A stretch of 64,000 bases of DNA from Chondrosia reniformis (lineage: Eukaryota; Porifera; Demospongiae; Chondrillida; Chondrillidae): positions 7,707,901 through 7,771,900 of the forward strand of contig OX359196.1 in NCBI GenBank assembly GCA_947172415.1, written 5' to 3'. Positions 1 to 45,922 of the stretch are shown piece by piece. The notes beneath the pieces are model-generated. The model was given only the letters and a program-made list of their open reading frames with translations, was not told the origin of the DNA and made no database searches. Each line of letters starts with the position of its first letter. Within the stretch, counting starts at the first letter, position 1. Made by a program: the position numbers and the translations under genes.

Positions 1-185
1 TGCTCAATAAACTTCTTATAATTTGGTGTATGTAATTAACCTCCATATACGTACAGTATACGTATGCAATAAATGTTTTGCACAGTTCAACATACCTGGT
101 GTTTCTGTATTTGGTAATGCTAATATTAAATAAGAATATTGGTTCCTTTACAGGAAATTGTCTTACAATGGAGTTATGTTCTTAC

Positions 186-2431
186 CTGGTTGCATGTAGC
201 TATACTCCATCACATCACTAGTATTACTCCCAGCTGAGTTCACAGCCATCACTGCAATGTTGTATGTTGTACCATTCACTAGTCCTGTCAAGTTGTAGTA
301 GGTCAGGTTACTGGCTGTGTTGGTTGTGTTGGAACCATACTGGATGATATAGTGTAGTTCTCCATTGGGTTCTCTTGGAGGCATCCAGTTCAGTTCAACA
401 CCATCTTTACACACTCTTGTGAATGTGAGATTTCTTGGTTTAGTTGGTACTGTATGTAAAGGAATAATGTTATATATTGAATATACACACTTTACTTGCT
501 TGTATTCTACCTAACATATTATGTACGATAGACGTCAAAAAAAGTTAACGTTTCGTTCGTTAAGACTAAGCCAGAACGGCGTACCGTTTTGTTTCGGCTT
601 AGTCTTCAATTCGTCCCAAAGCGTTTTAGATCGTCCTTATTATAGGCCTACGAAATGAATAAAAACGATCAATCGTCTATTGCTTGCGTTCCGACGTAAG
701 TTGTTAAACACGTGGATACTTGTGTACCTTATTTGTGAAATACTTGGACAATTGTACTATAATTAACACAAAGCGTTTCTCACGTACATGCGTTCCTACG
801 CAGTTCCGCATGCTTACGAAAGTACAGATGATCGTTTTTCGAAGACGATCGATCGTTGTGTATCGTCTTCACACCGTTTCCGTAGGAACAAAACGCCGTA
901 TAAACGAAACCAAACGTTAACTTTTTTTTTGACGTCTACCGTATATATACTATATAATCAGTTAACAATACTGCAGAACATACCACTTGAGTTAGCTCTA
1001 TAAGTAGTCTCATTTGGTGCTAAACTGATTTGTTGTCCACTAATAATCCAAACCTTTACCCTGTACAGTCCACCTGGTACTACTGACAGAGAAACCTGTC
1101 TACTAGTATCACTTCCACTAGTAGGTACTGCAATGTGTCCAACCTCAACTGGTACTCCTAGATCTAGACGATCATATCTTGTGACATATTTACGTTGACC
1201 ATTTCCACCACTCACTCTGAATGTAATAGGTTTCTGGTTCTTTTTTATTAATCTCACTTTAGGTATTGGTAAGATGTCTGTAAAATTTATATGCACACAT
1301 ATAAACAGTATTTGTGTTTATCTAATCATGTACTTACTATTTGATAGGTATATGTTGATGTAATGATTTATATCATTATCAGTACAATAGTAGTCATCAG
1401 TTGTATGTGATGTTCTATTAACAAAGAGTGTAGCTGTTAGACCATTTTCACTCTTATACACATCTTCAGTTGGTGATGTTGACACAGCAGGATCACCATT
1501 GATATACCATTTAGCATTACTACTATTGTATGATATACACTGTATCTTTCCTATCTCTTGGTCTCCTGCTATTTCTGTGATGTTAGTAATGACAGCTTCG
1601 TGATCAAGGATTCTGTTCTGACTAGTAACTATAAAACCTGATTCTGTAGTATGGAGGGATGGTACTTATCTTATACGTGTTACTACTGGTGTGATGACAA
1701 CTCACTTGGTGGTGCAGCAGTGAATGTAAATATAGCACTCTTATTGATACCACCAGCCAGTACAGTACAGGTATAGTCTCCTCCATCACTTTTAGAGATA
1801 AGAGGGATTTTCAAGATATGACTTTCAATATTACATGTTCCATGAGGGCAGGTCCATCTGTAGCTAGTTTGTACTCCATAAGGTATTCCAGTGACTGTAC
1901 AGACTAGAATAACAGTTGTCCCCAATTGTACAGTATCACCAGAATCCAGTGTTGTGTTGTGTGTGTATCCATCAATCAGTACTGATATATCCTCTAAAAA
2001 GTACATTATCAATATTAGTCAGTGAAAACATTTTACATGTGTATATTTAGTGAACTCTACATGTATTCTTCTGGGAGAAGATAGTGTTTAGATATCTAGT
2101 GGAGGTGAATGTACTTTCCCATAGCCATCAATTAAACATACATATAAAATGTGTACATATACATATAAAAACGAAGTTATGGAAAGATTATATTATTGTT
2201 TTAGACAAAAACTGACATTATTTTTATTGGTATCAATTGATTTTTTGTGACCATCTACGTACATGTCAATGAATACTTTCAGCAACTTTCAGACTGGGTG
2301 TAGATTTTAAGTTACCTACAGAATGTAACTCACTACAATAGCAACTCACTTTGAACTTCACTTTTTCCCTTTCCCATTTCTATGCTAACACTGAAAAGTG
2401 TCAGCTCTATTAAAAGAGTAGTCCACTTCAT
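186..2431 (-). CDS. Receptor A: Ig-Ig-FN3-FN3 membrane receptor, 3' end outside window
   Basis: Exons, 5' to 3' on the minus strand: 2431-2350 (signal peptide starting MKWTTLLIELTLFSVS), 1993-1706 (Ig1), 1664-1338 (Ig2), 1277-984 (FN3-like), 449-186 (FN3). All introns are phase 1 with GT-AG ends. Ig1 has the two canonical cysteines (ILVC and DYTC), the core Trp, and an additional CPHGTC pair. Ig2 has QC, KWY and DDYYC. The FN3 exon has the NW.PPREPNG strand and several N-glycosylation sequons. The transmembrane/tail exon expected after the donor at 185 lies left of the window, so this is the ectodomain of a type I receptor of unknown ligand. The intron before the last exon carries a transposon (526-941). 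Ig2 has no in-frame Met but is fully open. The domain calls are firm; the function is inferred from the family layout. Confidence 0.85.
526..941. mobile_element. MITE-like element, TA target duplication, in receptor A intron
   Basis: A 416-bp insertion with imperfect terminal inverted repeats of about 35 bp, beginning cgatagacgtcaaaaaaa and ending ttttgacgtctaccg, flanked by TA on both sides. The same intron in receptors B, D and E reads straight through (ttatgtatatatactcataatcag), which gives a paralogous empty site. There is no transposase ORF, so it is non-autonomous. TA duplication suggests Tc1/mariner-type mobilisation. Base composition is richer in CpG than its surroundings. Confidence 0.8.
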
Positions 2432-3419: not shown

Positions 3420-3820
3420 TTATCACCATAGCCTTGCACAGGTCAAGTGCAATTAACTCCCTTACTTCATCCCTTGTCCGAGCCCTGTGCAAATAATTCC
3501 CTCAGTTCACCTATTCGTATGTACGGCTAACATAACTGCACTCTAATGAGAACGATGGTACGTAATTGAGAAGTTTGATCTTCTTTAGTTTGTGCTGATG
3601 AGTAGCCATCTTGTGGTTGTTCATCAGATTATGTGTCAAGGTCTGGGAAAAGTGTTATTTTAGATTATTCACATATTATGGGAACCTTATTTTCAATTGT
3701 ACATACACAGTGCTGCATGATATTACAGACAGCATTAGTTAACCTCCTGATATTGTAAATTGAAGTGAATTTTTATTTAACAAACATTATATTAACTTTC
3801 ACTTCAAGTTCATCTACGTA

Positions 3821-4545: not shown

Positions 4546-7403
4546 TCACTTCTTTGAAGCCTTCTTCTTCTTCTTAGTCTTATCTGGTTGAGCATAAAAT
4601 GCCTCACGATCACTGACTTCTGTTGGCAGCTTTGATTTCTTTTTCTTTTCCTTATTTGGCACAGTATAAAGATCTGAAGGATCAACTGGTTGACCATTAG
4701 TCTTCTTCTCTGAGATATCCTTTGAGATATCATCTTTTGACTTGCTCTTTTTATCTGTTTTATTCTCTTTATTCTTATCAACATCAGTATCATCATATAT
4801 GAAGTTTGAAGTACCATGTAGGTTTGGTTTGGTGCATGCGTCAGTTGTCATGTCTTTATCCACAGTATCATAGTGAAGTCCATCTTGAACATGTTGATCA
4901 TTGTTGTAATGTTGGTTGACAGGAGAGTCACGCTCTGCTCTGCTGTAATGAGGTGGTTCCTCAGTGTCTCCAGTGTTTGGTATCGTAATCTCTTCAGTGA
5001 CCACATAAGTGTAGTCAGGTTTGTCTTCCCCAAACTCTTCCTTGCTGGTTGAAGGTACCACATTGTTGTAGTAGACAGCGTTCCTTTTCCTCTTCTTTGC
5101 TCTAAAGTTGCACATTACTATGATGATGAGTGTGACCACTGCTATAATGACCAGTACTACCACTACAACCACTAGTGCCACTATCGCTAGTACCTGAGAG
5201 TCAAGAGGTGTGGAGGAGGGAGAATCTGTAGGTATGGTTGAGGATGTTGGAGATGTGGAGGAGGGAGAATCTGTAGGTATGGTTGAGGAGGTTGGAGATG
5301 TGAATAAAGGTGCAATATTCTTATGTATAGATACTGTATATGTAATATATACATAGATATTCCTTTAAGTTAACCTTCTTCTATTGTAGGAGACACTTTA
5401 CTATAATATTAAATCAGGTTAATGACTTCTTCTATACTAACCATTTTCTGACGACTGTACATGTGTATACTCCATCACATCACTAGTATTACTCCCAGCC
5501 GAGTTCACAGCCGTCACTGTAATGTTGTATGTTGTACCATTCACTAGTCCTGTCAAGTTGTAGTAGGTCAGGTTACTGGTTGTGTTGGTTGTGTTGGAAC
5601 CATACTGGATGATATAGTGTAGTTCTCCATTGGGTTCACTTGGTGGCATCCAGTTCAGTTCAACACCATCTTTACACACTCTTGTGAATGTGAGGTGTCT
5701 TGGTTTAGTTGGTACTGTATGTAAAGGTATAATGTTATGTATTGAATATACACACTTTACTTGCTTGTATTCTACCTAACATATTATGTATATATACTCA
5801 TAATCAGTTAACTATACTGCAATACATACCACTTGACTTAGCTCTATAAGTAGCCTCATTTGGTGCTAAACTGATATTTTGTTCATTAATAATCCAAACC
5901 TTTACCCTGTACAGTCCACCTGGTACTACTGGCAGAGAAACCTTTTTATTACCCGTATGGACTACTTTTATATGTCCAACCTCAACTGGTACTCCTAGAT
6001 CTAGACGATCATATCTTGTGACATATTTACCACTTCCACCACTTACTGTGAATGTAATAGTTTCCTGCTCCTCTCTCGATAAAGTTATTGTAGGTATTGG
6101 TAAGGTATCTGTAAAATATAGAAATTTTAATTTGCATGTAAACAACATGTGAATGTTTATTATGGACTTACTGTTGGATAAATATAAGTTGATGTTATGA
6201 GTTGTATTATTATCAGTACAATAGTAGTCATCACTTGTATTTGATGTTCTCTTAACAAAGAGTGAAGCTGTTGAACCATTTTCACTCATATACACATCTT
6301 CAGTTGGTGATGTTGATAGAATATATCCACGTCTATACCATCTAGCATTACCACCATTGTATGATCTACACTGTATTTCTCCTATCTCTTGGCCTCCTAC
6401 TATTTCTGTGATGTTAGTAATGACAGCTTCGTGATCAAGGATTCTGTTCTGACTAGTAACTATAAAACCTGATGCTGTAGTATGGAGGGATGGGACTTGT
6501 CTTATATGTGTTACTACTAGTGTTATGACAACTCACTTGGTTGTTCAGCAGTGAATGTAAATACAGCACTCTTATTGATACCATCAGCCAGTACAGTACA
6601 GGTATAGGTTCCTCCATCACTTGTAGAGATAAGAGGTATTTTCAAGATATGACTTCCAACATTACATGTTCCATGAGGGCAGGTCCATCTGTAGCTAGTT
6701 TGTACTCCATAAGGTATTCCAGTGACTGTACAGACTAGAATAACAGTTGTCCCCAATTGTACAGTATCACCAGAATCCAGTGTTGTGTTGTGAGCGTATC
6801 CATCAATTGTAACTATAGGGATTGATTAAATTGTATTTTGTTAATTTATTTAAGGTATGTATATCCCAAGCAGAAAATTAGTTTGTGTGTACAGATTTCT
6901 AGTACATATATATGTGTAAACATATATATGTAAAGTATACAAGTAAATAAAAAAACATTTACAAAAATGATGTTAGAAGTAGGAATGGCAGTGTTCACTA
7001 ATACACATCTGCAAAAAGTATCGAAACAAGACAGTGATTTTATGATAAGGCTAATCATATAGAAGTTGCATGTATACTGAAATTTAAGTAACTTAACCAT
7101 ACACTTCTGTATTTGGGTGCACCAAGCTGAAGTAGGAATGGAAATATTTATGACGATTTATAAATTTTACGTTTCCGCATAAGTTTGCATATTAGCGGTA
7201 GTCCATTCAATAAAAGAAGAAGAAAAAATGAATTTTGAAAATGGGCCTATTCCTGGTTAGCCGCGTTTTGAACGCTGTAGAGCATGTAGAGTGTCGAAAC
7301 ATGTTTTGACATTTGGAAAAACATGACTACTACACTCACCAGCCTCTTCTCCTGTGCTGACACTGAAGAGTACCAGTTCTGTTATTAGAACAGTTAGCTT
7401 CAT
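4546..7403 (-). CDS. Receptor B: Ig-Ig-FN3-FN3-TM receptor with tyrosine tail
   Basis: Exons: 7403-7340 (signal peptide, MKLTVLITELVLFSVSTGEEA), 6812-6537 (Ig1), 6495-6172 (Ig2), 6108-5830 (FN3-like), 5714-5442 (FN3), 5270-4546 (Ser/Thr/Pro stalk, helix and tail). Total 1941 nt, 646 residues. The stalk contains a 15-residue duplication. The helix is a Val/Ile-rich stretch starting at ALVVVVVVLVIIAVV, followed by RAKKRKR. The tail differs from C-F. It has YTYV, HYSRAE, GLHYDTV (fits the ITIM pattern L-x-Y-x-x-V), then the two family motifs DLYTVPNKEKKKK and FYAQPDKTKKKKK near the C-terminus. The likely role is ligand binding at the cell surface and phosphotyrosine/SH2 signalling inside (inferred). 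The Ig1-Ig2 intron is only 41 nt. Confidence 0.88.
5221..5310 (-). repeat. 45-bp tandem duplication in receptor B stalk
   Basis: Two copies of a 45-bp unit encode TDSPSSTSPTSSTIP. Each copy carries a cctacag that works as a phase-1 3' splice site, so the duplication also doubled the acceptor (exon starts at 5270 or about 5225). Choosing the inner one would shorten the stalk by 15 residues without a frameshift. Confidence 0.65.
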
Positions 7404-8366: not shown

Positions 8367-11300
8367 TCATTTATTCACAGTTGAATAGAGCAGCTCAGGA
8401 TCAAATAGTGGAATTTGAGGAACTTCTTCTTCTTCTTCACTGTCTGCTGATGGTTCATACTGGAGGACATCTTCCTTCTCATGTTCTTCCTTCTCTTGTT
8501 CTTCTGAAGTCTCTTTTTTATCTTTCTTCTTAGTCTTATCTGGTTGAGCATACAACTGATCTGAGTTGTCAACTTCTTGTAATTTCTTTTTCTTAATCTT
8601 ATTAGGCATTGCATAAAGATCTGAAGGATCTATAGAAGGAACTTCATCTTTAGGGTCACTCTTGGATGAGCTACTTGCTGTGTTCTTTTCTTTCCTCTTT
8701 TTCATATCAACATCTTCATACATTGGATTAGCAAACTGCTCAATGTCATTCCTCTTGTCTGGTTTAGTGTCAATATCATCATAGACAGAGAAGGAGGTTG
8801 TTGTGTGAGCTATGTGTTGTTGAGCTGCCTTGACTTGTGGCTCATCATCATAGTCTCCTGTGGGTCCTCCTGAAGATGTGTTCCTTGTATGAGTAGTAGT
8901 AGTAGTATAGTGTGGTGTCTTTCCAGTGTTGTTCCTCTTCCTTCTTGTACTGACACACAAGATGAGTACTACTATTGTAATGATGATAATCACTAGTAGT
9001 AGTACTGCAGCTGCTGCTCCAGATATAGCTGATATGGATTTGTCATCTGTCAAGTGATTAGATGGAGATGGGGAGTGACTGGTTTCTGTAGTAATTAAAA
9101 CAATTTATAAATTATAACTGTGCACAGATATTTGTTTTAGGCAAATTGTAAATAAATTAAATAGCATACCTTCTTCAGTGACTGATTTTGGAGTAGATTC
9201 TGATGTATCTATGGTACTATTGTAAATATTACTTTCTGGGGTTTCAGCTGTATACAGTATACCCCTATAAAAAGGCTTATTTTAATCTGTTAAGGAACAT
9301 ACCAGTCACAGGTACGTATGTCTAATTAAGACTTGTTTAGTCTGATTAATATTTTGAAGGTGTCAAACAGGTATAAATTACAACTGTAACAAGTATGTTG
9401 CAGTTGTACTACACCCCAATCTCCTACAACTGTTTTCCTAATAGACAGGTCTGTAGCATGTAACACTTTTTATAAGGATATTATGTAACACTTTTTATAA
9501 GGATATTATGTAGCACAGCACAGCTGTGTGATTATACGTATACATACGTACGTATGTACGTATATATGTATTAATATTTAATGTTTATATATATTATTGA
9601 TATTACTCACCTGGTGACAAATATGTTACTGTTGGTGTGACTGTGTATATAGTAGAAGAAAATAAGATTATTATGAATATATGTATGTACAAACTAATAA
9701 GACGTAGTTCTTATAATAGCTATTTCCTATAGCAAAATATTGTAACCTTATATACAGTATTGTACTTGATGTTATATAAAGTGAAGTCTGTTAATATGTG
9801 CTATGTAAAAATATATAAATTTAGTGTACAAAAGTATATTATCCTGAGATTTTATTGTTATGATATTTCATAGATGCATCATTTGTGTTGCTCTACAACT
9901 GACCATTTTCTGACTGTGGATACTCCATCACATCACTAGTACTATTCCCAGCTGAGTTCACAGCCATCACTGTAATGTTGTATGTTGTACCATTCACTAG
10001 TCCTGTCAAGTTGTAGTAGGTCAGGTTACTGGCTGTGTTGGTTGTGTTGGAACCATACCGGATGATATAGTGTAGTTCTCCATTGGGTTCTCTTGGAGGT
10101 ATCCAGTTCAGTTCAACACCATCTTTACACACTCTTGTGATTGTGAGGTGTCTTGGTTTAGTTGGTACTGTATGCAAAGGAATAATGTAATATATTGAAT
10201 ATACACACTTTACTTACTTGTACCTAACATATATATACTCATAATCAGTTAACAATACTGCAGTACATACCACTTGACTTAGCTCTATAAGTAGTCTCAT
10301 TTGGTGCTGAACTGATATGTTGTCCACTAATAATCCAAACCTTTACCCTGTAGAGTCCACCTGGTACTACTGACAGAGAAACCTTTTTATTAGTATCACT
10401 TCCACTAGTTAATACTGCAACATATCCAACCTCAACTGGTACTGCTAGATCTAGACGATCATATCTTGTGACATATTTACGTTGACCAGTTCCACCACTA
10501 ATGTTTATTATAAGAGTCTTTTTTCCTAAACGCATCATCATCATATTAGGTATTGGTAAGGTATCTGTAAAATTATATGTAAAATTGTATTATATTATAA
10601 TTTTATACAATCATTGTTTATCTAGTTATTTAACCTGTAAACCTGTATTTGTAATCATGGACTTACTATTTGATAAGTATAAGTTGATGTAATGTCTTCC
10701 TCCATATGTACTGTTACTACAGTAGAAGTCATCACCTGTTTTTGATGTTCTCTTAACAAAAAGTGTAGCTGTTGGACCATTTTTACTGTACACATCTCCA
10801 TGTGATGTTGATAAGCCAGATCCAGGTCTAACCCATGTAGCATCACCACCATTGTATGATCTACACTGTATCTTTCCTATCGCTTGGTCTCCTGCTATTT
10901 CTGTGATGTTAGTAATGACAGCTTCATGATCAAGGATTCTGTTCTGACTAGTAACTATAAAACCTGATGCTGTTGTATGGAGGGATGGGACTTGTCTTAT
11001 ACGGTACGCACAGAAAATTATGGTACCGTATACGTGTATAGTACCGTATGGTATTGACAAAAGTAACACGCTAGGGTACTTTTAAGGGACTTAGGGTAGT
11101 ACTCGGTATACCGATATTCGATATACTCGATATTAAGTGTTAGCGAGCCTCTCTGGCTTCGTTTGGATACGATTTCGTTTTTGTGGGAATCGTTAATAAT
11201 AAGTGGCATCAATAATCGATACAAAATAATTTTCGCTTATTTTATATGCTAGCCTATGTATCGATCGAAAGTTACATTAAAAGCTTTATATTACAATTGA

Positions 11301-12256
11301 CTTGTTAACACTTTGTGCCTGTTAACAAGTCAGTATTTATACATTGGTAACTACTTGCGAACGTCTGAAATGTCCAAATACTCGGAGTATAAAGGTTTGA
11401 GAATAGTAGCCCTTTGGCAAGAAGGAAATAAAGCGCCTACAATGTGAAAAGAAGGTTAGATCGCTTGGTGTATTATCGGTTCACGTCAACGAGTTAGCAC
11501 CTTGCGCTTGACAAATTCCGATCGATTCTACCGGTACTTTTAGGTCTAGGTATTTACGATCGAAAATCGTGTCTACCGGTACTTATTTTTTAATACTGGT
11601 AGTTCTAAACTACTCCTTAGGAATGTAAATTTCCGTGCGTACCGTATATGTGTTACTACTAGTGTTATGACAACTCACTTGGTGGTTCAGCAGTGAATGT
11701 AAATACAGCACTCTTATTGATACCATCAGCCAGTACAGTACAGGTATAGTTTCCTCCATCACTTGTAGAGATAAGAGGGATTTTCAAGATATGAATTCCA
11801 CTATTACATGTTCCATGAGGGCAGGTCCATCTGTAGCTAGTTTGTACTCCATAAGGTATTCCAGTGACTGTACAGACTAGAATAACAGTTGTCCCCAGTT
11901 GTACAGTATCACCATAATCCAGTGTTGTGTTGTGAGTGTATCCATCAATATGTACCAATGGGTCTGCCACATATTTAACAAATTTGGCTGTTACAGAGTT
12001 AAAGACATGTAAGAAAAGATGAGTGTATAGTCCTTTCTTAAGTGAGCAGATACAACCTACATAACCATAACTACTGATATTAAAATGTTTTTCTATTAGT
12101 ACATATATACTGTACATACATATATACATTTATGAACCTCAAACTATAACTGGAATATAGTCTATAAAGAAGGTAACATTCACAGTGACATACATACGTA
12201 CCTGTTGATATGTGTACTGTGATCAATGAGATCAGTACAACTGCAAACACCGTCAT
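8367..12256 (-). CDS. Receptor C: Ig-Ig-FN3-FN3-TM receptor with ITIM-like tail
   Basis: Exons: 12256-12202 (signal peptide MTVFAVVLISLITVHIST), 11987-11679 (Ig1), 10990-10667 (Ig2), 10564-10271 (FN3-like), 10167-9904 (FN3), 9640-9611 and 9247-9170 (Thr/Pro stalk), 9085-8367 (helix and tail). Total 2073 nt, 690 residues. The helix is an Ala/Leu/Ile/Val run ending LILCV, then STRRKRN. Tail tyrosines in order: SVYDDI, NPMYEDV, DLYAMPNK, QLYAQPDK, LQYEPS and LLYSTV. SVYDDI and LLYSTV fit the ITIM pattern. Lys-rich blocks follow the YAxP motifs and an acidic block precedes the end. AATAAA overlaps the last two codons before the TGA. The FN3 donor is the weaker GTCAGT. The Ig1-Ig2 intron holds a 643-bp transposon. 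An in-frame upstream GTG exists, but ATG 12256 gives a clean signal peptide. Confidence 0.88.
11002..11644. mobile_element. 643-bp inverted-repeat element in the Ig1-Ig2 intron of receptor C
   Basis: The termini are cggtacgcacagaaaatta and its near-perfect inverse taaatttccgtgcgtaccg, flanked by TA on both sides. The corresponding introns of A, B, D and E are 41 nt and contain the unoccupied site cttatatgtgtta. The interior has no long ORF with recognisable transposase motifs. It is a non-autonomous, probably Tc1/mariner-type element. Splice sites of the host intron are untouched. Confidence 0.85.
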
Positions 12257-12375
12257 TCTATAGGACACTCAACTCATCTACATAAATAGTATGTAAGTAA
12301 ACTTTCCACTTTCAGAGATGTCTATGCTCAACTATAGCTAAACATACATACAGTCAGACCACTGTGTACTTAGCA

Positions 12376-14108: not shown

Positions 14109-14163
14109 CCTGTGTGGCTAAGTCCAAATGACAAGTCATTTTCAGAGCTTGTCATAATTCATA

Positions 14164-14194
<31 letters not shown>

Positions 14195-26236: not shown

Positions 26237-27526
26237 CTGCGTGTTGAGTGTTGCACTTACAAGTAGTCCTGGGTTTTCCACTACTGCAATCTCATTTGCA
26301 CTTGGTTTGTTCCTCTTTATGTACCTCACAGTTCAGTGCTTTCTGTAAGCCTCCCTTTCTTGGGCTGGGGGAATCTTCATTTGATTCTGACTCACTTTAT
26401 AATATCCTAACAAGCACCTCATCTATGTATTTTAATATAGTTATTACTCTATATTATGAATTTAAAGCTATATAAAAGGATTCTAACATTGATAGACATG
26501 GTTTGGTGGATTGTATGGCACACAATCCCTCCAAATTCTGGGCTGGTTTGATTGATATTGATTAATTGCACTTTGAACCATATACAGTGAACAGTATTTA
26601 CCATCTTTCATTTCACACATACACATATATACATACATTATTGCTCATGTTGTGTTAATATTGGAATAACCTTCAGAACCATCATTTTCCATTCTCCGTT
26701 CCCCGTTCCTCATTCCCTTCCTGTCATTCCTGGTTTTATGGGGTCCCTGGCCAACCATGTCTATAGGGAAATGGAGCTTTATATTAAAATCATATGTACC
26801 TTCTATAATGGCTTGCCACCTCTCTAGATCAGGTGCTTCAACTTTCACTTTAAATACTTCTTTCTGGTTTAGAATTAGGTCTCATGGATGACCAGATAAG
26901 TGATATTGTATTTTATATGTAAACATGTGTACATATGTACGTACGTACGTATATACACAGGCATTTACTATACATATAAAGAAAATCCTATTGTAAATTG
27001 TAGAATTCTCTAAACTAACCAGTTCTTCCTTTAGGAATTAACAATTATAGTGTTTCAATATGTACATACTTCATTTTATTAAAGTGTTTACATATTTCTC
27101 CTCTTTCCTCTTAACTTCCTACTAGTTTAAAGTGAATTAGGATATGCTTAATACTCATATAAATACAGTATGTACGTATGTCTGGTAATTGAAAAAGTTG
27201 AGCATTAGCTACAAACAGAAATTGAACATTGTGACCCAGAGGTCTTCATCAGCAATGAATTACCAATTGTATGTACGTATGTATCAAATGAAAGGATATG
27301 TACACATACAGTATGTACCGTGTAAGTATGCTGTTAATTAATTACACACTGTTACAGTTGAAGATAAGCGTACGTATGTACATTCATATATCCACACATT
27401 TAGTAATCATAGTGAGTATACATATAAACTAAACATGTTTGACAAGCAGTAGTTGAATTATTGGAGTTTGTATTCTCTTCACACTAAACACCAATTGAAA
27501 GGAGTTGGAAATACTGGCTCTGTGAA

Positions 27527-30500: not shown

Positions 30501-30574
30501 TACTGTGACATACCTGTTGAAATGAATATTGAGATCAATGAGAGCAATACAATAATTGCAGATATTGGAAACAT
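27527..30574 (-). CDS. Receptor F: Ig-Ig-FN3-FN3-TM receptor, divergent ectodomain
   Basis: Exons: 30574-30514 (signal peptide MFPISAIIVLLSLISIFIST), 30181-29849 (Ig1), 29748-29404 (Ig2), 29140-28823 (FN3-like), 28539-28267 (FN3), 28203-27527 (helix and tail). Total 2007 nt, 668 residues. The FN3 and tail exons are close to those of C-E, while Ig2 and the FN3-like exon are strongly diverged (Ig2 has SKWIYECRCPC and KYYC; FN3-like has YERLDMKVTVEL). It has no separate stalk exon, so the helix follows FN3 after about 12 residues. The tail ends THYSAVNK, which fits the ITSM pattern T-x-Y-x-x-V. The Ig1 exon ends at an atypical donor (GTACTT). AATAAA overlaps the last codons. The mixture of young and old exons suggests exon exchange. 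Confidence 0.85.
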
Positions 30575-32038: not shown

Positions 32039-32655
32039 CTAGTATGCAGCTGTAAACATGTCTACTGATTGTGGTGGTACTGGAGGAGCACAGTCCTCAA
32101 CACCTTCGCCGGCTGATGGCTTTCCATTTGTACTTGAAGCACTTTTTTTCTGCTTCTTATTCTTCTTCTCTGGTTGAGCATAAAGAAACTCTGGATCAAT
32201 CACTTCTTCATTTTTGTCTGATTTCTTTGATTTTTTGCTTTTCTTCTCCACTTGAGCATAAAAAAGTTCTGGATCAACTGGTTCTTCTTTTTTCTCTGAT
32301 TTCTTTGATTTTTTGCTTTTCTTCTCCACTTGAGCATAAAAAAGTTCTGGATCAACTGGTTCTTTTTTCTCTGATTTCTTTGATTTTTTGCTTTTCTTCT
32401 CCACTTGAGCATAAAAAAGTTCTGGATCAACTGGTTCTTCTTTTTGCTCTGATTTCTTTGATTTCTTGGTCTTCTTCTCCACTTGAGCATAAAAAAGTTC
32501 AGGGTCAACTGGTTCTTCTTTTTTCTCTGATTTCTTTGATTTCTTGGTCTTCTTATCTGGCTGTGCATAAAAAAGTTCAGGGTCAACTGGTTCTTGTGAT
32601 TTCTTTTTCTTTTTGGATTTGTCAGGCATGGCATAGAGCTCAGTGGGGTCGACTG
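31275..32655. repeat. Segmental duplication, copy 2 (partner 25030-26236)
   Basis: Near-identical partner of the block downstream of receptor F. This copy keeps the full tail exon G and the larger number of tyrosine repeats. Confidence 0.85.
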
Positions 32656-33009
32656 AAGGATGCTCTGCCCTCCCCTTTGCCGTCTCCTTTGAAGGATCTT
32701 TCATGCCTTTCTTTCCTTTCTTCTTGTCAGCATCAGCACAATCATACATTGTGTCCAGAAATGCCTCACTATCTAGATTTGTTGTAGCACCCACTGATGG
32801 CCTTGTTGAGTGTATGTTTTCATTGGGAGTCATTTCAAAGTTAGCCCCTCCATGTTCACCTGTCTGTGCTGAGCTGCGTAGCTGTTGTTGGACGTTGATC
32901 CGTCGTTTTGTCCGGCAAATGCAGACAATTACCAAAGTAATGACAGTGACAAGCAGTAGGATGACTACACCTCCAGCAGCTGCTATTCCAGCAATTAAGT
33001 TAACTGTGT
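32039..33009 (-). CDS. Tail exon G: transmembrane helix plus seven tyrosine repeats
   Basis: One open exon of 971 nt (2+323x3), starting at a TTAG acceptor in phase 1 as in all family tail exons. Order: short linker DTVNLIAG, Ala/Gly/Val/Leu helix, CICRTKRR stop-transfer, DTMYDCAD, then LYAMPDKSKKKKK and six (F/L)YAQ(P/V)(D/E)KK repeats of about 26 residues, and QSVDMFTAAY at the end. The repeats are rich in Lys/Glu. No Ig exon lies between it and the tail exon of receptor H; only an FN3 relic is seen (34311-34377). It could be an alternative last exon for receptor H (spliced product about 828 residues without the H stalk exon) or the surviving end of a gene whose ectodomain was lost. The preserved frame over repeats favours use. 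Confidence 0.65.
32200..32600 (-). repeat. 78-bp coding tandem repeat in tail exon G
   Basis: Five to six near-identical units of about 78 bp (one is 75 bp), each encoding one PVDPELFYAQ block followed by VEKKSKKSKK or a close variant. The duplicate at 25842-26236 has three YAQ units, so copy number has changed since the duplication. Confidence 0.9.
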
Positions 33010-34955: not shown

Positions 34956-37900
34956 TCACTTCTTTGGTTTATTTGGTAGTGCGTAAATGTGTTCTTCATT
35001 TGACAATGTTGGTTCTTCATCAATCTCGTTGTACTGATTCTCAGTAGCTATCGCCTCCTCTGATAGATTAATTCTTCCAGCATTGCTATTTACATGACTA
35101 CGTTCATCAATCTCGTTGTACTGATTCTCAGTAGCTATCACCTCCTCTGATAGATTAATTCTTCCTCCATTGCTATTTACATGATTACGTTCATCAATCT
35201 CATTGTACAGTGACTCATTTGTAATCTCTTTCTCCGAGGGACCAGGTCTTCTATCTCTACTGCTCACTTCTTTAACCTCCTCGTACTGAGCATCACTGTC
35301 GTCGTCATTACAAGACTCCAGCACAGCATTTCTTCCTCTATCGTGTGATCTAACACTGTTCTGGGGAGGAACTTGAGGAGGAGCTGGGGGAGGAACTTGA
35401 GGAGGAGCTGGGGTAGGGGCTTGAGGAGGTACTGAGGGAGGGGCTTGAGGAGGTACTGAGGGAGGGGCTTGAGGAGGTACTGGGGGAGGGACCTTAGGAG
35501 GTACTGGGGGAGGGGCTTGAGGAGGTGTTGAGTGAGGACCATGGGGAGGGACTGGGAGAGGAGCTCGAGAAGGAGCTGAGGGAGTGCCTTGAGGAGGAGC
35601 TGGGTGAGGGACTAGAGGAGGAGCTGGGGGAGGGACTTGAGGAGGAGCTGGGGGAGGGACTTGAGGAGGAGCTGGGTGAGGGACTAGAGGAGGAGCTGAG
35701 GGAGGGACTTGAGGAGTAGCTGGCGAAGGGGCTTGAGGAGGTTCTGGGGGAGGGGCTTGAGGAGGTTCTGGGGGTCTCCTCTTTGGACTAAGGACTGGTA
35801 TCTGCTCTTCAATCACATTGCACTCTCTGTTTGGTTGACCAGTACTATCTCTAGAGGGCCTTCTGTCTGTTTTGTCAGCACCTTCAAGCAGGAGGCTCTC
35901 ATGTGACCTACCTTCCTTAATGGTTGCTAAAGAGGCAGACTTGTCACTGTCATTGACATTTGCCAACTGGTAGCTCCTCCCCTTCTTCTCCTCTTCATTC
36001 AAGTAGTCATCAGTGGTATTCTCTTTGAAATATAACTTCTTTTGTTTGGCCAGGTGGCGTCTACCACACATAACAAAGACTACAAGGGTTACTATGATAA
36101 CCACTAGGAGGAGTACAACACCATAGACTACCACAAGACCAATAATAAGACCCATTTCCAAGTTAATTCCAACACTGCTTTCTGTCACTAAATGGGAATG
36201 ATTTAGAAAGTAATTACACATGTACTTCCAAATGAAATATTACAATGACAATGTGTTACAGTGCAAAGATACCAGTATAATTTTGTGTCTTTTTAAATTG
36301 CCAATCACCTGTTTATACTATTAGTTATCTCTCAATGTAAAATAATGGATTCATTAGAGAACAAAGAAATGTCTCTTTATCTCTTTACTTCTCAAGTTAT
36401 TAGCTATCTTATCTCTATGAATTAGCTACAATCTATATTCAATGAAAAGTGAGTAACAACAATTGTACAGCCACGTTGTAGTAAAATAGATCTGTACGTA
36501 TACAGAAAATCATGTGGAACTAGAATGAGAAGTACATTATATGTAACACAGTATTGCTACGTAAATATCATGTAATGACCCCTTGTACGTACTAGTCTTA
36601 CTGTCTCCTAATGAGACTGTATTTGGCGTATACTGTAATGGGATTGCTAGTGGTCCCAAATACTCAGTGATATTGCTACAGTATGTACATACCTCCTGGT
36701 GTTGGTGGCGTTGTGACAATACTGCTGTCACTTCCTGTTGTTAAGCTACTCTTTACAGTCTGTGTTGTAACAGGTACTGTTGCATCACTAGCAGGTACTG
36801 TTGCATCACTAGCAGATACTGTTGCATCACCAATGGACACACTAGAGTCATCTACTCCAATCAAGTCACATTCAAACAATGTAGCATTTACATCTAAAAT
36901 AGCAAATACATTTATAGTTGATGGAGATATGTACAGTAAACCTTCATATGAGCTGCTATATGCTATACCACATCAATCAATTATATGCAGATACAGTAAT
37001 ATACTTGAAGATCTTACTTTCAGCAATCATTGCGTTGTGCGTATAATGTAATAGTCCTTCACCACTTTTTCCTGCTTCATTTAAAGCACTGACAGAAAAG
37101 GCATACGTAGTACCATGTTCTAATCCAGTAATGTTGAAATAGTTTATATTACTACAAAATGTTTTCCTTCCGGGATACACTTTAACAATCATTTCGAATA
37201 TATCTCCATTGGGTTCTCTTGGAGGTATCCAGTTCAGTTCAACACCATCTGGAAACACTCTTGAGACTTTAAGGTCTCTCGGAAGAGAAGGAACTACATA
37301 AGGCACATATATAATTGCTATATATGTAGATGGCCCTTCAAACTTAGCACTTTAAATCTTCTCTAATAGTGTAAACAAGTTTTTCAAGTTTAAAAAACTT
37401 GAACTACTTGCTGGTTCTTCGATGTCTGTTAACCAATTCCAGTCATTGTTTAATTGCTGTCAATTTCAAGGCCATATCTCGTAGAAAACGTTTTTGCACA
37501 AGCTTTATGTTACATAGTATTAGTAAAGGTGGTTTCTAAATACTTTTCATTGGTTCAACATTGGCACCCCGAAATTCCTGACTATATATTCGAATCCTGT
37601 TAGGTCCTCGTATAATTAGAGGCTCTACTATATTGAAGTTACTACATATACATTACCTACCTCCAAAGAAACGTTACTATCGACCTAAGGGTTCATCATA
37701 TGTTAAGTGTCCTGTGTAGAGTCTGATATAACCCTGCAACCTAAAATTATATTTCTTTAACTACGTAAGACTTTAACCCATTAGCAATTTACATTCTGGT
37801 GCTTATTCATATTATATAAAACCCCAAAAAGGGGACCTATACAGCTAAGGATCTAAAGACCTCCCAGAAAGATTTTTTAAGGGTCACTGATGAAGGTGGT

Positions 37901-40023
37901 ATTCCTAGAAAAACAGCTGTCTGGCCCAGTGGAACAAAAGAATAAATAGAAAACTCTTGTCTCCTCGTTTAAGGTTCTCACTAGGAAAAGTGGATGTAGT
38001 ATGTAGAAAAATGGTGTTTTAGATACAACACTCTGCCTGCAGCACCTCAATGGATCATTACTTTCACATACATACCTGCTTCTTCTACTTGTAATGTATC
38101 TTTAGCTGGTGTTGGAGTAAACCTCTCATCAGATGAGAACCACACTGTAATATCATAAGTGGCTCCTGGAATGGCTGTTGGTCCAGTAATTATACCTTCA
38201 GTGCTTCGATGAATGGCATTCACTTCAACTGGAATGGAGAGATCAGTACGTCTGAAAAGAGCAATAAAAAGCCCATAAGGTGCTCCATCGAAGCTTGCCA
38301 TGGTAACATCAATCTTTCCTCTGTCATTCACCATAATACTTGTAATAGTTGGTTTGGGGAGGATATTATCAGCTGTAAACAAAACACTTGAACTATCACA
38401 ATATGATGCATTTACTATACACACAAATATCACTTTCAGACACTTGTTACGTTGTGGGTAAAGTTACTACTAGAGTTTGTTCATTTATATATACACTTAG
38501 TACAGTATACATTGTAAACAGTATAGGTACGTAGCATTGTCTGGCATACCTGTATGAGAGAGGTAGAGATAAAAGTAATGAGAACTTGTTATATCAATGA
38601 GAGGATCCTCTCTACAGTACAGTTCACTGTTTCTAAATGTAGTCAAGTTTGAAGTGTTCACAGTCAATATCTCTGTTTTTCCAATCATCTCAACTGAGAA
38701 GTGATTTATTGGATGCTGACTAAATCTTTCATAAGCATTAGTGGCTTTGTAGTAGAATACCGCATTCCCTATAACCACACTGCAGTTCAGTACCAATTGT
38801 TCATCACTTCCCATAAATTGTCTCACATCAGTGATGACAGAGTGAAGAGGAACAAGATTGTCAGTTGTGTGGACCACTTTGGCTTCTGTATATAAATACA
38901 ATAGGAAATACAGTCATTACTATTTTACACAAATACTAGTTCAATAAATGCCTGTCTACAAGCTGTTGCAACATACACTAAATCATACTGGACAATAGAG
39001 ATAGCAAGGACTATATTTGGATAAAATGTGTGTTTTGAATAGCTAGCATGAATTTTACAATTAACAAGTAACACAGTATGTCAAACTGGACTTAGAAGTG
39101 TAATTGATCATGAGAAGGTCACTGAAATGTAACAGTAATACAGTAATTGCAACAGTAATATGTACATTTATGTAAATAGCGTGTAGCTGCATGTCATGGG
39201 CTCCAAAAATGTATTTAGTCTATTCAGGTGTGGTGGTGTTTATGTCTCTACTTGTTATATAACTATATTTGTACCACACATGCACACATGTCAGACGAGT
39301 GTGTCATCAGTGACTTACCTCTGGCAATGTTTTGTCTGTATGAAGTAGAGTAGTTTGTCCTACCTACTCCTCCTGCAGTGACAGTACATTCATATTCTCC
39401 TTCATCATCAAAACTTATTATATTTAAAACCAAAGTGTAGCTTTTGTGAATACGTCTTGGGTTTCTCCCTTTTCCAATATTACATGGTCCATTAGGGCAG
39501 ACCCATCTGTAGCTAGTTTGTACTCCATAAGGTATTCCAGTGACTCTACAGACTAGAATAACAGTTGTCCCCAGTTGTACAGTATCTCCAATATCCAGTG
39601 TTCCTTCTGGGGTGTATCCATCAATATGTACTAATGGTTCTGCCACATATTCAGCAGATTTGACTATGAAGCAATAGTACAAGAAAGAGATAAGAGAGGC
39701 TGCACATTATTAGAATATTAGCCTGTTAATAATCAGTCTTTCTACAAGCATTATCCAAATACACATTAGTAATATTAGTAGATAAAGGATAGAAATAAAA
39801 ATGGACTGATTAAACCCAAAATACTGTACGTAAGTACTACATTAATGGAGGCTGGTGTGAATAAAGATACATTTGTCCTATAAACTTCTGTCCTGTATAC
39901 GGAATTGAAACTAAAAAACCCCACAGTTACAGTTCATTTTACTAAGCTATTTAAATACTTACCTAAATATCCAGTAGAGAAAAGTATTATACTACAGATC
40001 AAACTCCTTAGCATAAGGTCCAT
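34956..40023 (-). CDS. Receptor H: divergent Ig-Ig-FN3-FN3-TM receptor with proline-rich tail
   Basis: Exons: 40023-39963 (signal peptide MDLMLRSLICSIILFSTGYL), 39663-39319 (Ig1), 38885-38550 (Ig2), 38372-38076 (FN3-like), 37293-37018 (FN3), 36893-36693 (stalk), 36187-34956 (helix and tail). Total 2748 nt, 915 residues. The stalk has repeated DATVxAS units. After the helix (Val/Leu-rich, ending FVMCGRR) the tail has GRSYQLANV, a long run of 8-residue PPxPPQxP repeats (SH3/WW/EVH1-type ligand), AQYEEV, SLYNEI and two NQYNEIDE motifs in a repeated block, and ends HIYALPNKPKK, the family motif. SLYNEI fits the ITIM pattern. This tail could recruit SH3 as well as SH2 proteins. Ig1 is close to that of F; the other ectodomain exons are old. 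Confidence 0.85.
35360..35785 (-). repeat. 24-bp coding minisatellite, proline-rich region of receptor H
   Basis: About 17 units related to ggaggagctgggggagggac encode 8-residue PPAPPQVP-type blocks. It stays in frame throughout. The antisense open frames here are shadows. Confidence 0.9.
37319..38046. other. Long intron of receptor H with a dispersed-repeat fragment
   Basis: The intron between the FN3-like and FN3 exons. 37850-38030 resembles one arm of the 20320-20779 foldback element (cactgatgaaggtggtattc; aacagctgtctggcccagtgg split across small changes). The rest shows nothing recognisable. Confidence 0.55.
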
Positions 40024-41704: not shown

Positions 41705-42504
41705 TCAAGTTTTTGTGACTATTTCATCTTCTATATTTGGTGAAGTACTGAGGATGTTGAGGTATAAACCTTCACTGGTATTATGTAATCCTGCTTTACT
41801 GTTGTGTAATCCATTTATTAAATCAGCAGCACTAGTAGTACTGTCTCCTTGTTTCTCATAAGTATCTGGAGAGGAAGTGATTTTAGCAGTCATTTCATCA
41901 TTTGGAGCTGTGTCAACTGTTGTTCCCTTTTTGCCCTTATTAGGCACAGTATAGACCACTTCCTTTCCTTCTGGGTCCAGGACTGTCTTGGTTAAGTTTG
42001 CCTGATCCTGACTGTCTCCAGGTGCATGTGGATCTTCAGTTGATGGTTCACTTATATTAGCATAGTCAGTACTTGTGCTAGTGTTTCCGTTGACCTTTCT
42101 GACCTCTGTATATTCACTTATGACTATTGTCACAGGTTCCTCCTTGTTGACTTTTGCATCCTGCTGATGCAATCCTATTCTGAATGTTTTGCTGGCATCT
42201 ATAGCATCATACATCGGATCCGAAGAAGATTCTTTTCTAGTTTCTGCTACATTCTCTGCAGTAATATCTGCTTTTTCCAAATTGGCTGCATTCTTTTGCG
42301 TTACATATTCATTTCCTACAGCAGCTGGGGTCTCATTGTTGTCTACATAGAAATATGCTGACTGTTCATGTTCTGCCCTTCTCGTGGCTCTCTTCCTTCT
42401 CAGACAGAGGCACACACAGCAACATATGCAACAGGCAGAGATAAGAAGTATCAGTGCTCCCCCTCCAATAGAGCTCCCAGCAACTACTGCTAAGCATGAC
42501 ACAT
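41705..42504 (-). CDS. Tail exon I2: second transmembrane/tyrosine tail downstream of receptor I
   Basis: An 800-nt open exon (2+266x3) with a TTTGTAG acceptor in phase 1. It encodes SCLAVVAGSSIGGG, a helix rich in Cys (ISACCICCCVCLCL), RRKRATRR, then the tail. Tyrosines include YFYVDN, DPMYDAI (shared with C-G as DPMYED), SEYTEV, TDYANI, VVYTVPNKGKKG (family motif) and GLYLNI. SEYTEV and TDYANI are 12 residues apart, giving a near-ITAM (Yxx-Val, x12, Yxx-Ile). The juxtamembrane Cys cluster is a candidate palmitoylation site. Only 490 bp separate it from the end of receptor I, with no ectodomain, so it is probably an alternative last exon of receptor I (spliced product about 714 residues). 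Confidence 0.7.
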
Positions 42505-42996: not shown

Positions 42997-45922
42997 TTAA
43001 CAGTCCTTAGATTTTGGTGTTTTTATAGGCTTTGTATAAATGTGCTCTAATTGTTGCGTAAAACCTGTCTTATTGATTTCCTTGTTGCGTGTCAATGTTT
43101 TAGACTTCATAGATTTAGCATAATTGTTCTGTGTTTCTCTTTCATAATTTGAGGGAAGTGTATTGAATGCCTTGTTTTCCAAAGCTGCATCAATCTCCAG
43201 TAGTAGGGAGCTGGTGGAGGTACTTCCACTTCTGTTGTCTTGTGTTAGCTTCCTCGGTTCTATAATACTGTACCCTCCAACTTCATCCTCCAAGTCATTC
43301 TGACATTTCAGTTCTGTCCCACTCTTGTATTCTAATTGAGGAGCACTATCTGTTCTCATAGGCTTGAAAAGGACCTTTGCTTTGAACTCTTCTCTTCCTT
43401 CAGGTGGAGCACGAGATACAGAAGATTCATTCTCTTGGTTCATCTCTGCTTGATCAGAAAAAGGAGAGACAAGGATATTGTTGCTATCACTGATGGAAGA
43501 ACTTGATGACATCTCAGTATGGCTGGCTGTGGTATCACTCAGTGGAGGAGAGAGGGCTGTTAATAGATCTGATTGGCTGTTGGTATCCTTTGATGTTGCT
43601 GGTGCTGGGACCTTCCCCTTTGGAGCTCTCTCATTAGCATGCTTGTGGTTCCACTTCATGTACAGTGTCTCAGCCATTGTGGGCAACCTATCTGTAGGCT
43701 CTGTGGTTACCCAGTACGGATCTATTATCTTGATGCTGCGGTTGCTACGGTTTAGAGTCAGACTTCTCCTTATATGGGAAAACCTACTAATGGTTGTGCT
43801 ATCATCTCCACTAGTTGCATCCTTTGCTCTCCTTCTTCTTCTTCTTGTCCAAAGAACACAGATAATGACAGCTGATAATGAAATTAGTACAGCCACTACT
43901 CCTACGCTTACTCCCACAGCCCAGAAGATGACCATAAGGTCTCCCCCACTTGAATGTTGTGTTTCAGCAGTGCCTGTATGTACATATATACATATACGTA
44001 CATTAGATATTACAATGATATGCATTATAATTACATAGTACATATTTATATGTGAGGCTATATATACCTTCTTGTATAGATTCACTTGTAGTGGGTGTGT
44101 TAAGCCTCTTTGGGGTGTGGACATACTGCAGTATTTGGCTGTAGCTCCTTTTTGGTAATACTGTCTCTAGGAAGATAGTGTAAGCGTGGTCCTCCTTCAG
44201 TCTGGTCAGGTTTTGATGTGTCTGGGTGCTACTGGCCCTGATCTTGGGAAGTTGCACTGACTGGTTTAGGTTGATGTACAGGAATTCATACGTCACCTCT
44301 CCATTGGGTTCTCTTGGAGGTATCCAGTTCAGTTCAACACCATCTTGAAACACTCTTGTGATTGTGAGGTTTCTTGGCGGAGAGGGAGGACCTAAAATTA
44401 ATAGTATTTATGTCATTACTGTCAATATTGTAATATATAAAAATTTAATTCAAACTAGATACACTTTTGAGTATTTAAAATGTTTCAGTTAATCCGCTCA
44501 AGTAAATTGATAATCAAAGTGAAAGAATAGAGGTATATTTAGATTATTATAAGAAGGGAGAGCTACCCATGTGATGTATATGTCACATGATACATGACCT
44601 TTGTCACATGATACACGGCCTTTGCCACATGATTCACAATCTACTATGAATTGCACAGGTTGAAAGCAAAAACTTACTATCTGTCAAAGCTACAAAGGTA
44701 CCCTCTTTTGGCTGAGAGCAAATGTATCCCTCACTGAGTGTCCACATTTTAACTTTATAAGTGGCCCCTGGGACAACATTTAGCAGAAATGTTGTCTCCT
44801 GTTCACTCTCAAGGTTTGCCATATGTCCAATCTCAAATGGCATTCCCAGATCCAATCTGTCATATTGAAGTATGAACTTGATTGACTTGAGATCCAAAGC
44901 AGATGGTACCCCAAATGCTATGTCTGCAAATCCTTGTATCTCAATAGTTCTCTCCAGAATGGCAACACGTAGAAAATCAGGATTTTGAATAAACACTGTA
45001 CAATTGAATTATATTACATTCTAATTATATGAATTATTTGTAATACAACTACTGTATTACACTTACTGTTATTCATATATAAATGTACACTGGCCCTGTA
45101 TGTTTGGTCATGTCTGTCCAAGCAGTAGTAGAGAGCATTTTCCACTTTTTTCTTCACCACCAAAGTAGCTGTTTCCCCCAGTTTCCTCTGATGTACATCA
45201 GCTTCCGGATTTTCTGTTATGGTCCTGCCATCTCTCATCCATTCTGCATTACCTGTCGACGATGTGCAGTTAATTATACCTTCCTCACTTGCAGATCCGC
45301 CAATTTCATGTTTGCTTCTAACTACCATTTCAGAATGATAGATGTTGTTGTGTCCATGAAGTACAATGCCTAAGAAATTGAAACCATACCATGTGAATTT
45401 ATTAAAATTGTTAAATTTGTTTTTCTGAGCTACTGTTTGATTATGAACCTTTAGCTGCTGTTTTTAATAAGAAACTTGTTTGCAGTAATTGTACGTCCTT
45501 CCCTTTCACTTCACAAGTGTACTCTCCCTCATCATTACTTGAGATGACATTGATGACCAGAGTGTCATTATAAGTCTTTCTGTTTGGATTTCTCCCTTTT
45601 CCAATATTACATGTTCCATGAGGGCAGGTCCATCTGTAGCTAGTTTGTACTCCATAAGGTATTCCAGTGACTCTACAGGCTAGAATAACAGTTGTCCCCA
45701 GTTGTACAGTATCACCAGAATCCAGTGTTGTGTTGTGTGTGTATCCATCAATCAGCACTGCAGCATCACCTGTAGTTAGAGGGGAGTAGACTGTCAAGCA
45801 TTAAAAGACTACAAAACTGTATCTGAGGTTTGCAGCTGAGGGGTATCCTGCAACTTTAGCTTACTTGTCAGTAAGACTGACTCTATCATGAGACAGTAGA
45901 CAAATACAAACTTTAATATCAT
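42997..45922 (-). CDS. Receptor I: divergent Ig-Ig-FN3-FN3-TM receptor
   Basis: Exons: 45922-45865 (signal peptide MILKFVFVYCLMIESVLLT), 45790-45449 (Ig1), 45369-45067 (Ig2), 44995-44678 (FN3-like), 44391-44068 (FN3), 43973-42997 (helix and tail). Total 2322 nt, 773 residues. Ig1 is a mosaic: its first half matches A-D, its second half matches F. Ig2 (AEWMRDGR, ALYYC) and both FN3 exons are old, except the GVELNWIPPREPNG patch. The helix (FWAVGVSVGVVAVLISLSAV) is followed by an Arg run. The tail is long and Ser-rich with TLYMKW, LEYKSG, GGYSII and ends HIYTKPIKTPKSKDC, a variant of the family motif. The Ig1 donor (GTTCAT) is weak. A second tail exon lies downstream (41705-42504). Confidence 0.83.

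Follow-up and report, generated by a model that had tools for sequence, protein, structure and literature searches.

The 64,000-nucleotide stretch of DNA analysed here (the window) is C8:7707901-7771900, on chromosome 8 of the demosponge Chondrosia reniformis (assembly odChoReni1.1; PMC12181767), in keeping with the sponge origin proposed in a first-pass annotation. The genome searched comprises 117,379,552 bases in 15 contigs, labelled C1, C3, C8, C13 and so on. The window carries eight minus-strand genes for predicted receptors, B to I from left to right, that share a common exon plan: a signal peptide (SP), two immunoglobulin-type domains (Ig1 and Ig2), a fibronectin type III-like domain (FNL), a fibronectin type III domain (FN3), an optional stalk, and a transmembrane segment with tail (TM/tail). 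The exon joins in all eight genes are in phase 1, with usable splice sites.

Receptor genes of the cluster

The receptors and associated tail exons are, in window coordinates:

186..2431, minus strand: receptor B (tail left of the window); SP 2431-2350, Ig1 1993-1706, Ig2 1643-1338, FNL 1277-984, FN3 449-186
4546..7403, minus strand: receptor C; SP 7403-7340, Ig1 6812-6537, Ig2 6474-6172, FNL 6108-5830, FN3 5714-5442, TM/tail 5333-4546
8367..12256, minus strand: receptor D; SP 12256-12202, Ig1 11987-11679, Ig2 10969-10667, FNL 10564-10271, FN3 10167-9904, stalks 9640-9611 and 9247-9170, TM/tail 9085-8367
16086..19445, minus strand: receptor E; SP 19445-19391, Ig1 18831-18523, Ig2 18460-18155, FNL 18085-17804, FN3 17688-17425, stalk 16942-16865, TM/tail 16783-16086
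21372..24683, minus strand: receptor F; SP 24683-24614, Ig1 23987-23700, Ig2 23637-23332, FNL 23259-22984, FN3 22868-22599, possible stalk 22283-22203 (GC donor needed), TM/tail 22126-21372
25842..26291, minus strand: G2, a partial copy of H2 without membrane segment, likely a relic
27527..30574, minus strand: receptor G, mosaic; SP 30574-30514, old Ig1 30181-29849, Ig2 29748-29404 and FNL 29140-28823, recent FN3 28539-28267 and recent TM/tail 28203-27527
32039..33009, minus strand: H2, an extra TM/tail exon lying 3' of the tail exon of H; open frame with repeated FYAQ(P/V) units and an acceptor in phase 1 at 33009
34956..40023, minus strand: receptor H, old; SP 40023-39963, Ig1 39663-39319, Ig2 38885-38550, FNL 38372-38076, FN3 37293-37018, stalk 36893-36693, TM/tail 36187-34956 (proline-rich part and SLYNEI)
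41705..42504, minus strand: I2, an extra TM/tail exon lying 3' of the tail exon of I; open frame with an acceptor in phase 1 at 42504
42997..45922, minus strand: receptor I, old; SP 45922-45865, Ig1 45790-45449 (weak donor), Ig2 45369-45067, FNL 44995-44678, FN3 44391-44086, TM/tail 43973-42997

The seven complete models, C to I, are open single chains of 655-916 codons with AG/GT splice sites, and the exon models confirm the eight receptors, exon plan and phase-1 joins described in the first-pass annotation. Receptor B is open up to the window edge, its tail lying outside at C8:7706677-7707531. Stalk exons are present in D, E and H; F is open either without a stalk or with one ending at 22203, which requires a GC donor, and Ig1 of I depends on a weak GT donor. 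The count of eight holds for the window, but the cluster is larger: four further ectodomains, R1 to R4, lie to its left (C8:7684.3-7697.9 kb), making 12 ectodomains across ~69 kb. R2-R4 end in a short tail, preceded in R2 and R3 by an extra Ig exon, and the FN3 exon of R4 is disrupted by stops. A search at an expectation value (E) of 1e-3 revealed no more family exons in C8 7587.9-7684 kb or 7754-7812 kb; other relatives on C8 are located near 7.563 and 7.84-7.87 Mb. The proposed tandem duplication of Ig/FN3 receptors is therefore borne out, and extends to R1-R4 and to a genome-wide family. Assembly artefacts or haplotypic duplicates were ruled out as the source of the copies, since R2, R3 and B-F differ by a synonymous divergence (dS) of ~0.02-0.26 per ectodomain exon and have differing tails; haplotypic duplications were removed, according to the assembly paper (PMC12181767). 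A decaying array was also rejected, as all seven complete models of the window have open frames; R4 and G2 look damaged.

The extra tail exons I2 and H2, for which no separate ectodomain was found, are possible alternative tails of I and H. They are noteworthy because certain Botryllus FcoR receptors change their tail motif by splicing (PMC12065747). A stretch of 0.9 kb at and 3' of the H2 and G2 ends (window 32390-31501 versus 26187-25293) is 93% identical and represents duplication of a tail together with its spacer, one copy lacking the membrane part.

Ectodomain relatives, tail motifs and candidate effectors

The Pfam domain scan covered E, G, H and I, and found fn3 in all four FN3 exons, together with Ig in Ig1, above the cut-off in G, H and I and below it in E; Pfam gave no match for Ig2 of F and H or for FNL of F. 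The predicted model of FNL is a seven-strand FN3 fold (predicted local distance difference test score, pLDDT, 87; TM-score up to ~0.8 against solved FN3 domains), and its homologue on C13 is scored as fn3 by Pfam (9.4e-12); on this modelling FNL is an FN3 domain. Predicted models of Ig2 are Ig-like sandwiches, the best at pLDDT 83, and the Ig label is less secure there because the other models reach a pLDDT of 62-74 and TM-scores are only ~0.4-0.6. A genome search for the FN3 family, in which the best 150 of 2147 candidates were scored, served as background only.

A genome search with one Ig1 domain as query returned 91 matches on 10 contigs (129/129 candidates scored), namely 46 on C13, 23 on C8, eight on C10, six on C14, two each on C1 and C4, and one each on C2, C3, C9 and C11. 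The C13 array comprises 44 Ig1-like exons at 1.63-2.35 Mb, in two groups separated by a gap at 1.96-2.18 Mb. In a catalytic-exon search (150/162 candidates scored) the array yielded at least 17 phosphatase exons, all at 1.65-1.96 Mb; elsewhere the catalytic exon is found in one C4 copy at 100%, with weaker matches on C3, C4, C6, C7, C9 and C11. A phosphatase-less transmembrane exon occurs at 25 places on C13 (19 at 2.18-2.35 Mb, six at 1.62-1.95 Mb) and at two on C9. The kin loci on C13, C4 and C11, one from each, were read as open frames as opposed to spliced models. The frames of the C13 gene (L039) are, in order, Ig1, Ig2, FNL, FN3, FN3, the transmembrane segment, an initial phosphatase domain that contains a WPD loop and CSAGVGRTG, and part of another. 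The same order is seen in the relatives on C4 and C11, with further FN3 frames absent in C4 and several present in C11. The best match of the C13 phosphatase piece in PDB is PTPRS/LAR (2.9e-38).

Comparison by tblastn of window exons with a gene in the phosphatase-less half of the C13 array (L030) gave matches in the same order, with best E values of 2e-11 for Ig1, 1e-8 for FNL and 3e-16 for FN3. Profile-profile comparison with an alignment of kin (three C13, one C4 and one C11 sequence, three of the five from phosphatase-bearing loci) gave E values of 1.6e-8 for FNL and 1.2e-5 for Ig2. With the Ig1 query, identity between window and C13-array sequences is ~36-42%; FN3 matches over the full length mostly lie at 47-58%. 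These comparisons make the Ig-Ig-FN3-FN3 ectodomain of the window genes a homologue of the N-terminal region found in LAR-type (type IIa) receptor tyrosine phosphatases. No phosphatase domain is present in the window tail exons, which were read to their stop codons, and Pfam detected none over the whole of E and G; nor was one found at the window locus in a PF00102 search, among the best 150 of 531 candidates scored and with matches listed only in part. A regular expression for the phosphatase signature gave no matches even in the C13 gene that bears the motif, which is split by an intron, and so provides no evidence. The window genes are best regarded as ectodomain kin, and not as members, of the LAR-type phosphatases, because the tandem phosphatase domains are missing. 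Two neighbouring genes in the phosphatase-less half of the C13 array encode Ig, Ig, FN3, FN3, FN3, and the second also has the transmembrane exon, plus a short piece in which NPAY and VVYEKC occur. Related ectodomains are therefore followed by a phosphatase in some genes, by a short tail in others and by a predicted docking tail in the window genes. Relatives of the long tails of D-G are found on C1, C8, C10 and C14, and those of the R2-R4 short tail on C1, C3, C8, C10 and C13; the short tail recurs in clusters at C10:841-904 kb, C8:465-528 kb and C1:5.90-5.94 Mb. Separately, dozens of phosphatase-domain exons lie amid FN3 exons on C6 at 0.61-1.26, 3.07-3.14 and 6.6-7.0 Mb, perhaps further large expansions of receptor phosphatases.

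The tails were examined for sites resembling the immunoreceptor tyrosine-based inhibitory motif (ITIM-like, [ILVS]xYxx[ILV]), for the corresponding activation motif (ITAM, Yxx[IL]x6-12Yxx[IL]) and for YxxP. Across 14 tails (B-I, R2-R4, one C14 gene, I2 and H2) there are 19 ITIM-like sites versus 2.7 in shuffled sequences, 24 YxxP sites versus 8.1, and no ITAM. When a single tail per lineage was retained (seven tails), nine ITIM-like sites were counted versus 1.8, a number reached in 0/2000 shuffles, and 13 YxxP sites versus 5.0, reached in 1/2000. The tails of B-I hold 11 ITIM-like sites versus 1.6 in shuffles, with the motif present in seven of the eight. Examples are SVYDDI, LHYDTV, LLYSTV and SLYNEI for the ITIM-like sites, and YAMP and YAQP for YxxP. 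With respect to potential effectors, two tandem genes at 9.105-9.117 Mb on C3 (9104501-9117500; L042 and L043) have open frames for SH2, SH2 and phosphatase; the SH2 piece of one matches PTPN11 (SHP-2) at E 1.7e-63, ahead of SHP-1 at 1.1e-43, which identifies them as predicted SHP-2-type genes. The motif enrichment over shuffles and the presence of these genes uphold the earlier description of the tails as of SH2-binding type. Activating KIR pair through a charged membrane residue; such pairing was ruled out for R2-R4, whose transmembrane segments hold no charged residue.

Exon mosaicism and homogenised blocks

Divergence differs exon by exon inside one gene. The tails fall into classes, with dS of 0.22 between B and C, 0.06-0.14 among D-G and 1.9-2.4 between these two classes, the short R2-R4 class standing separate; yet the FN3 exons of B/C and D-G differ at a dS of only 0.03-0.15. 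Receptor G is chimeric, its FN3 lying at dS 0.05-0.15 from the recent genes and its tail at 0.06-0.14 from D-F, while Ig2 and FNL are old parts that differ at dS 0.9-1.95. Closely related ectodomains thus carry deeply diverged or unrelated tails. The range of gene ages expected from the first-pass annotation, from recent to very old, stands in so far as H and I are old, but age varies by exon within a gene. A near-identical youngest pair was not recovered: the closest window pair, D and E, is 90% identical over 609 ungapped positions, although the letters used earlier cannot be matched to B-I with certainty.

Two short blocks depart from this pattern (window coordinates):

45606..45749, minus strand: block 1 (Ig1 exon) in I, 98% identical to that of B; the rest of the I ectodomain is largely saturated
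1830-1973 (B), 6661-6804 (C), 11803-11946 (D), 18647-18790 (E), 23824-23947 (F), 29999-30140 (G) and 39479-39622 (H), minus strand: block 1 in the other receptors
44298..44377, minus strand: block 2 (FN3 exon) in I, 96% identical to that of F over 80 bp; in H at 37203-37282 (89%)

Comparison of I with B-F shows saturation, or close to it, in Ig2, FNL and the greater part of FN3. Nonetheless, 131-162 bp of the Ig1 exon of I are 94-97% identical, and 80 bp of its FN3 exon 91-98% identical, to R2, R3 and B-F. The Ig1 stretch in H and R1 is 84-91% identical to those of R2, R3 and B-F, and in R1 97% identical to R4 over 110 bp; the FN3 stretch is weaker in H (65-69% over ~250 bp, with a core of 80 bp at 89%) and in R1 (72-82%). 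Genome-wide, the Ig1 block is present at >=86% identity in 30 of 32 matches, some partial, on C1, C8, C10, C13 and C14. Protein constraint was removed by comparing only codons that encode the same amino acid in both genes. Between I and E, 43/43 such codons are identical inside block 1 versus 40/98 outside (P 2e-13), with comparable figures for H and I (37/39 versus 32/81) and for R1 and I (36/39 versus 29/73). In 18 of 25 pairs identity at these codons is 82-100% inside block 1 versus 38-57% outside; in the other seven, formed by G or C14 with each other or with B, E or F, it is 84-100% versus 71-77%. Block 1 misses P 0.02 in two of the 25 pairs (G-F, 0.11; C14-F, 0.022), and block 2 misses P 0.05 in four (C14 versus G, B, E and F). 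The excess codon identity at same-amino-acid sites shows that constraint on the protein cannot by itself account for the blocks.

A run test was applied to 80 of the 105 pairs formed by 15 genes, 25 having been dropped for codon identity above 85% or fewer than 40 sites. It gave P <=0.0075 in 40 of 54 non-control pairs; the 14 others pair G or C14 with recent genes or with one another, comparisons in which a test for a single run has low power. None of the 26 control pairs with a C13 gene was significant (lowest P 0.11), and C13-array receptors whose protein motif is similar have no excess of identity at silent sites (C13p-B block 1, 10/23 versus 35/68 outside). The halves of one exon of I differ in their closest partner among the genes compared, the first being nearest to B (dS 0.08), with C14 close behind, also at 0.08, and the second to G (0.41). 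Tract ends also vary: R1 and R4 share Ig1 positions +9..118 at 97% identity, I and B share +31..192 of I at 97%, and the FN3 exons of C14 and F are 96% identical from base 27 to 250. Since tract ends vary and exons are mosaic, the pattern points to interlocus, partly interchromosomal, gene conversion as the probable origin of the blocks. A selected nucleotide-level element, such as a splicing enhancer, RNA structure or recombination signal, could also hold the blocks at about the same position in many gene pairs, as is seen; this is improbable given that the ends differ between pairs and that the homologous C13 receptors lack the excess, both in the silent-site comparison and in the control pairs.

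Selection was gauged from the ratio of non-synonymous to synonymous differences per site (pN/pS) pooled over seven recent ectodomains, a comparison of paralogues subject to conversion and hence a rough guide. Values were 0.99 for Ig1, 0.71 for Ig2, 1.32 for FNL (bootstrap 0.95-1.95) and 0.94 for FN3; tails gave 0.77 for D-G (0.52-1.22), 0.49 for B/C and 0.43 for R2-R4, the bootstrap intervals of the last two lying below 1. Positive selection is not supported, as the FNL value is not significant and those of Ig1, Ig2 and FN3 are compatible with relaxation. The ectodomains give no sign of strong purifying selection, which does not in itself prove diversifying selection.

As for the surroundings, a PHD-finger open frame, perhaps of mobile-element origin, lies between D and E (window 14451-15332, minus strand). 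Plus-strand open frames at 47888-53802 form the right border of the cluster, and one at 52360-52698 (plus strand) matches Fry_C, the Furry C-terminal family. Repeat arrays at 3759-4156 and 51664-52405 yield open frames in several phases. An Rfam search gave no match at gathering scores, and a protein-database search a single weak match, to a partial protein of a cyanobacterial metagenome-assembled genome.

Proposed function and known systems

The genes of the cluster probably encode inhibitory or adaptor-type contact receptors, with SH2-type docking and a phosphatase-receptor-like ectodomain, that have been diversified by duplication, recombination and conversion. Such a receptor would contact a ligand on another cell, a microbe or the matrix, upon which a Src-type kinase would phosphorylate the ITIM-like and YxxP tail sites. 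The ITIM-like sites would then draw in SHP-2-type phosphatases, and adaptors of the Crk/Nck type would bind at YxxP, the sequence that they prefer, with the outcome that the receptors would dampen or steer the contact response. Diversity would stem from tandem duplication, recombination at the phase-1 introns and interlocus gene conversion, the latter preserving similarity in short stretches of the outermost Ig and the last FN3 as the remainder diverges. The ancestor may have borne a phosphatase, the catalytic end being later replaced by a docking tail.

Several points weigh against this account. The tail of I has no ITIM-like match, nor do the short tails of R2-R4, and motif enrichment does not show use, because the motifs are short and the tails related; the receptors, their phosphorylation and their ligand binding are predictions from the genome sequence. 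Ig2 matches the phosphatase kin moderately well (probability 81% by hhalign), and the best PDB match of the C13 ectodomain is titin, with PTPRF second, so that the LAR-type label rests mainly on the phosphatase part. Either the tails were exchanged or the ectodomains homogenised, the data fitting both alike. The phosphatase-first direction draws on parsimony and on the antiquity of LAR-type phosphatases, as opposed to a rooted tree.

Among other functions, it is quite possible that these are ordinary adhesion or guidance receptors that serve to build tissue and play no part in self/non-self recognition, multiplied by neutral tandem duplication and conversion. LAR-type adhesion phosphatases are among the ectodomain relatives, a pN/pS near 1 can reflect relaxed constraint, the R4 FN3 exon is disrupted and G2 is likely a relic; on the other hand, the tails of B/C and R2-R4 are under constraint (the interval for D-G includes 1), and the seven complete window models have remained open. 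It is somewhat unlikely that the receptors serve in detecting microbes or symbionts, having expanded like other sponge innate receptor families. SRCR and NLR immune families are described as expanded in sponges, and the metagenome is representative of a high-microbial-abundance sponge (PMC12181767), but the ectodomain shows nothing microbe-specific. A self-recognition or immune role for the cluster is plausible in broad terms. A true allorecognition complex like the Hydractinia allorecognition complex (ARC), in which polymorphic receptors would decide fusion or rejection and ITIM-type tails act as a 'self' brake, is nevertheless unlikely. Conversion and tandem duplication would fit such a complex, as would the pN/pS of recent paralogues (0.7-1.3 in ectodomains versus 0.4-0.8 in tails), and Hydractinia Alr (PMC12065747, PMC11999971) and Botryllus FcoR (PMC12065747) are likewise clustered Ig receptors with ITIM-type tails. 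However, the locus is known from one primary haplotype, the Ig1 relatives are scattered across 10 contigs as opposed to one locus, and half of the outermost Ig is homogenised instead of hypervariable, the opposite of what is expected of an allotype-determining domain.

The inhibitory or adaptor-type account can also be carried further, to a two-sided code in which one ectodomain family is displayed either on tandem phosphatases (C13) or on docking tails (the window and other clusters). Shared or homophilic ligands would then join eraser and substrate at cell contacts, conversion would keep a common outer-Ig interface, and ITIM-type self-recognition would have arisen independently in Porifera; this extension is improbable.

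With regard to known systems, the LAR-type receptors PTPRF, PTPRS and PTPRD resemble the window genes in having Ig followed by FN3 domains outside the membrane, and homologues of the ectodomain in the same genome carry phosphatase domains, whereas the window genes have no phosphatase domain, tails with docking motifs and only two FN3 domains, and are clustered in number. KIR and LILR of the leukocyte receptor complex (LRC) likewise form a tandem cluster in which related ectodomains sit on different tails with ITIM-like motifs, but their ectodomains are Ig-only, unlike those of the sponge receptors, which contain FN3, and the R2-R4 short-tail forms lack the charged membrane residue. The earlier comparison with the LRC and KIR, in layout and not in sequence, is fair, with the amendment that receptor tyrosine phosphatases are among the more distant sequence relatives within the same genome. 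Aggregation factors, the subject of a paper cited in PMC12065747, are sponge allorecognition candidates, and these and the Geodia Ig-type adhesion molecules share with the window genes the context of sponge cell-surface recognition. Hydractinia Alr, a complex of 41 genes, also consists of clustered Ig receptors with ITIM and ITAM (PMC12065747, PMC11999971); the sponge genes are set apart, by description as opposed to sequence comparison, in having FN3 domains and no ITAM. Botryllus FcoR are type I Ig receptors encoded at a single locus, their tails bearing ITIM or Yxx[ILV] (PMC12065747), but combine V-type Ig, sushi and C2 Ig domains and are known to be polymorphic, in place of the Ig and FN3 of the sponge.

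A limited look at the open-access literature (titles and the starts of abstracts) found no account in sponges of clustered Ig receptors of the ITIM type or of phosphatase arrays like that on C13, and no graft or fusion study naming Chondrosia reniformis among the matches listed. With its ITIM-like tails, candidate SHP-2-type effector and phosphatase-bearing kin, this large sponge receptor family would extend the convergence of ITIM-type receptors to another early-branching phylum, and would suggest a source of such receptors, namely a phosphatase receptor that gave up its catalytic end for a docking one. The logic of inhibitory-type receptors may accordingly extend to more animals than those in which it is known.

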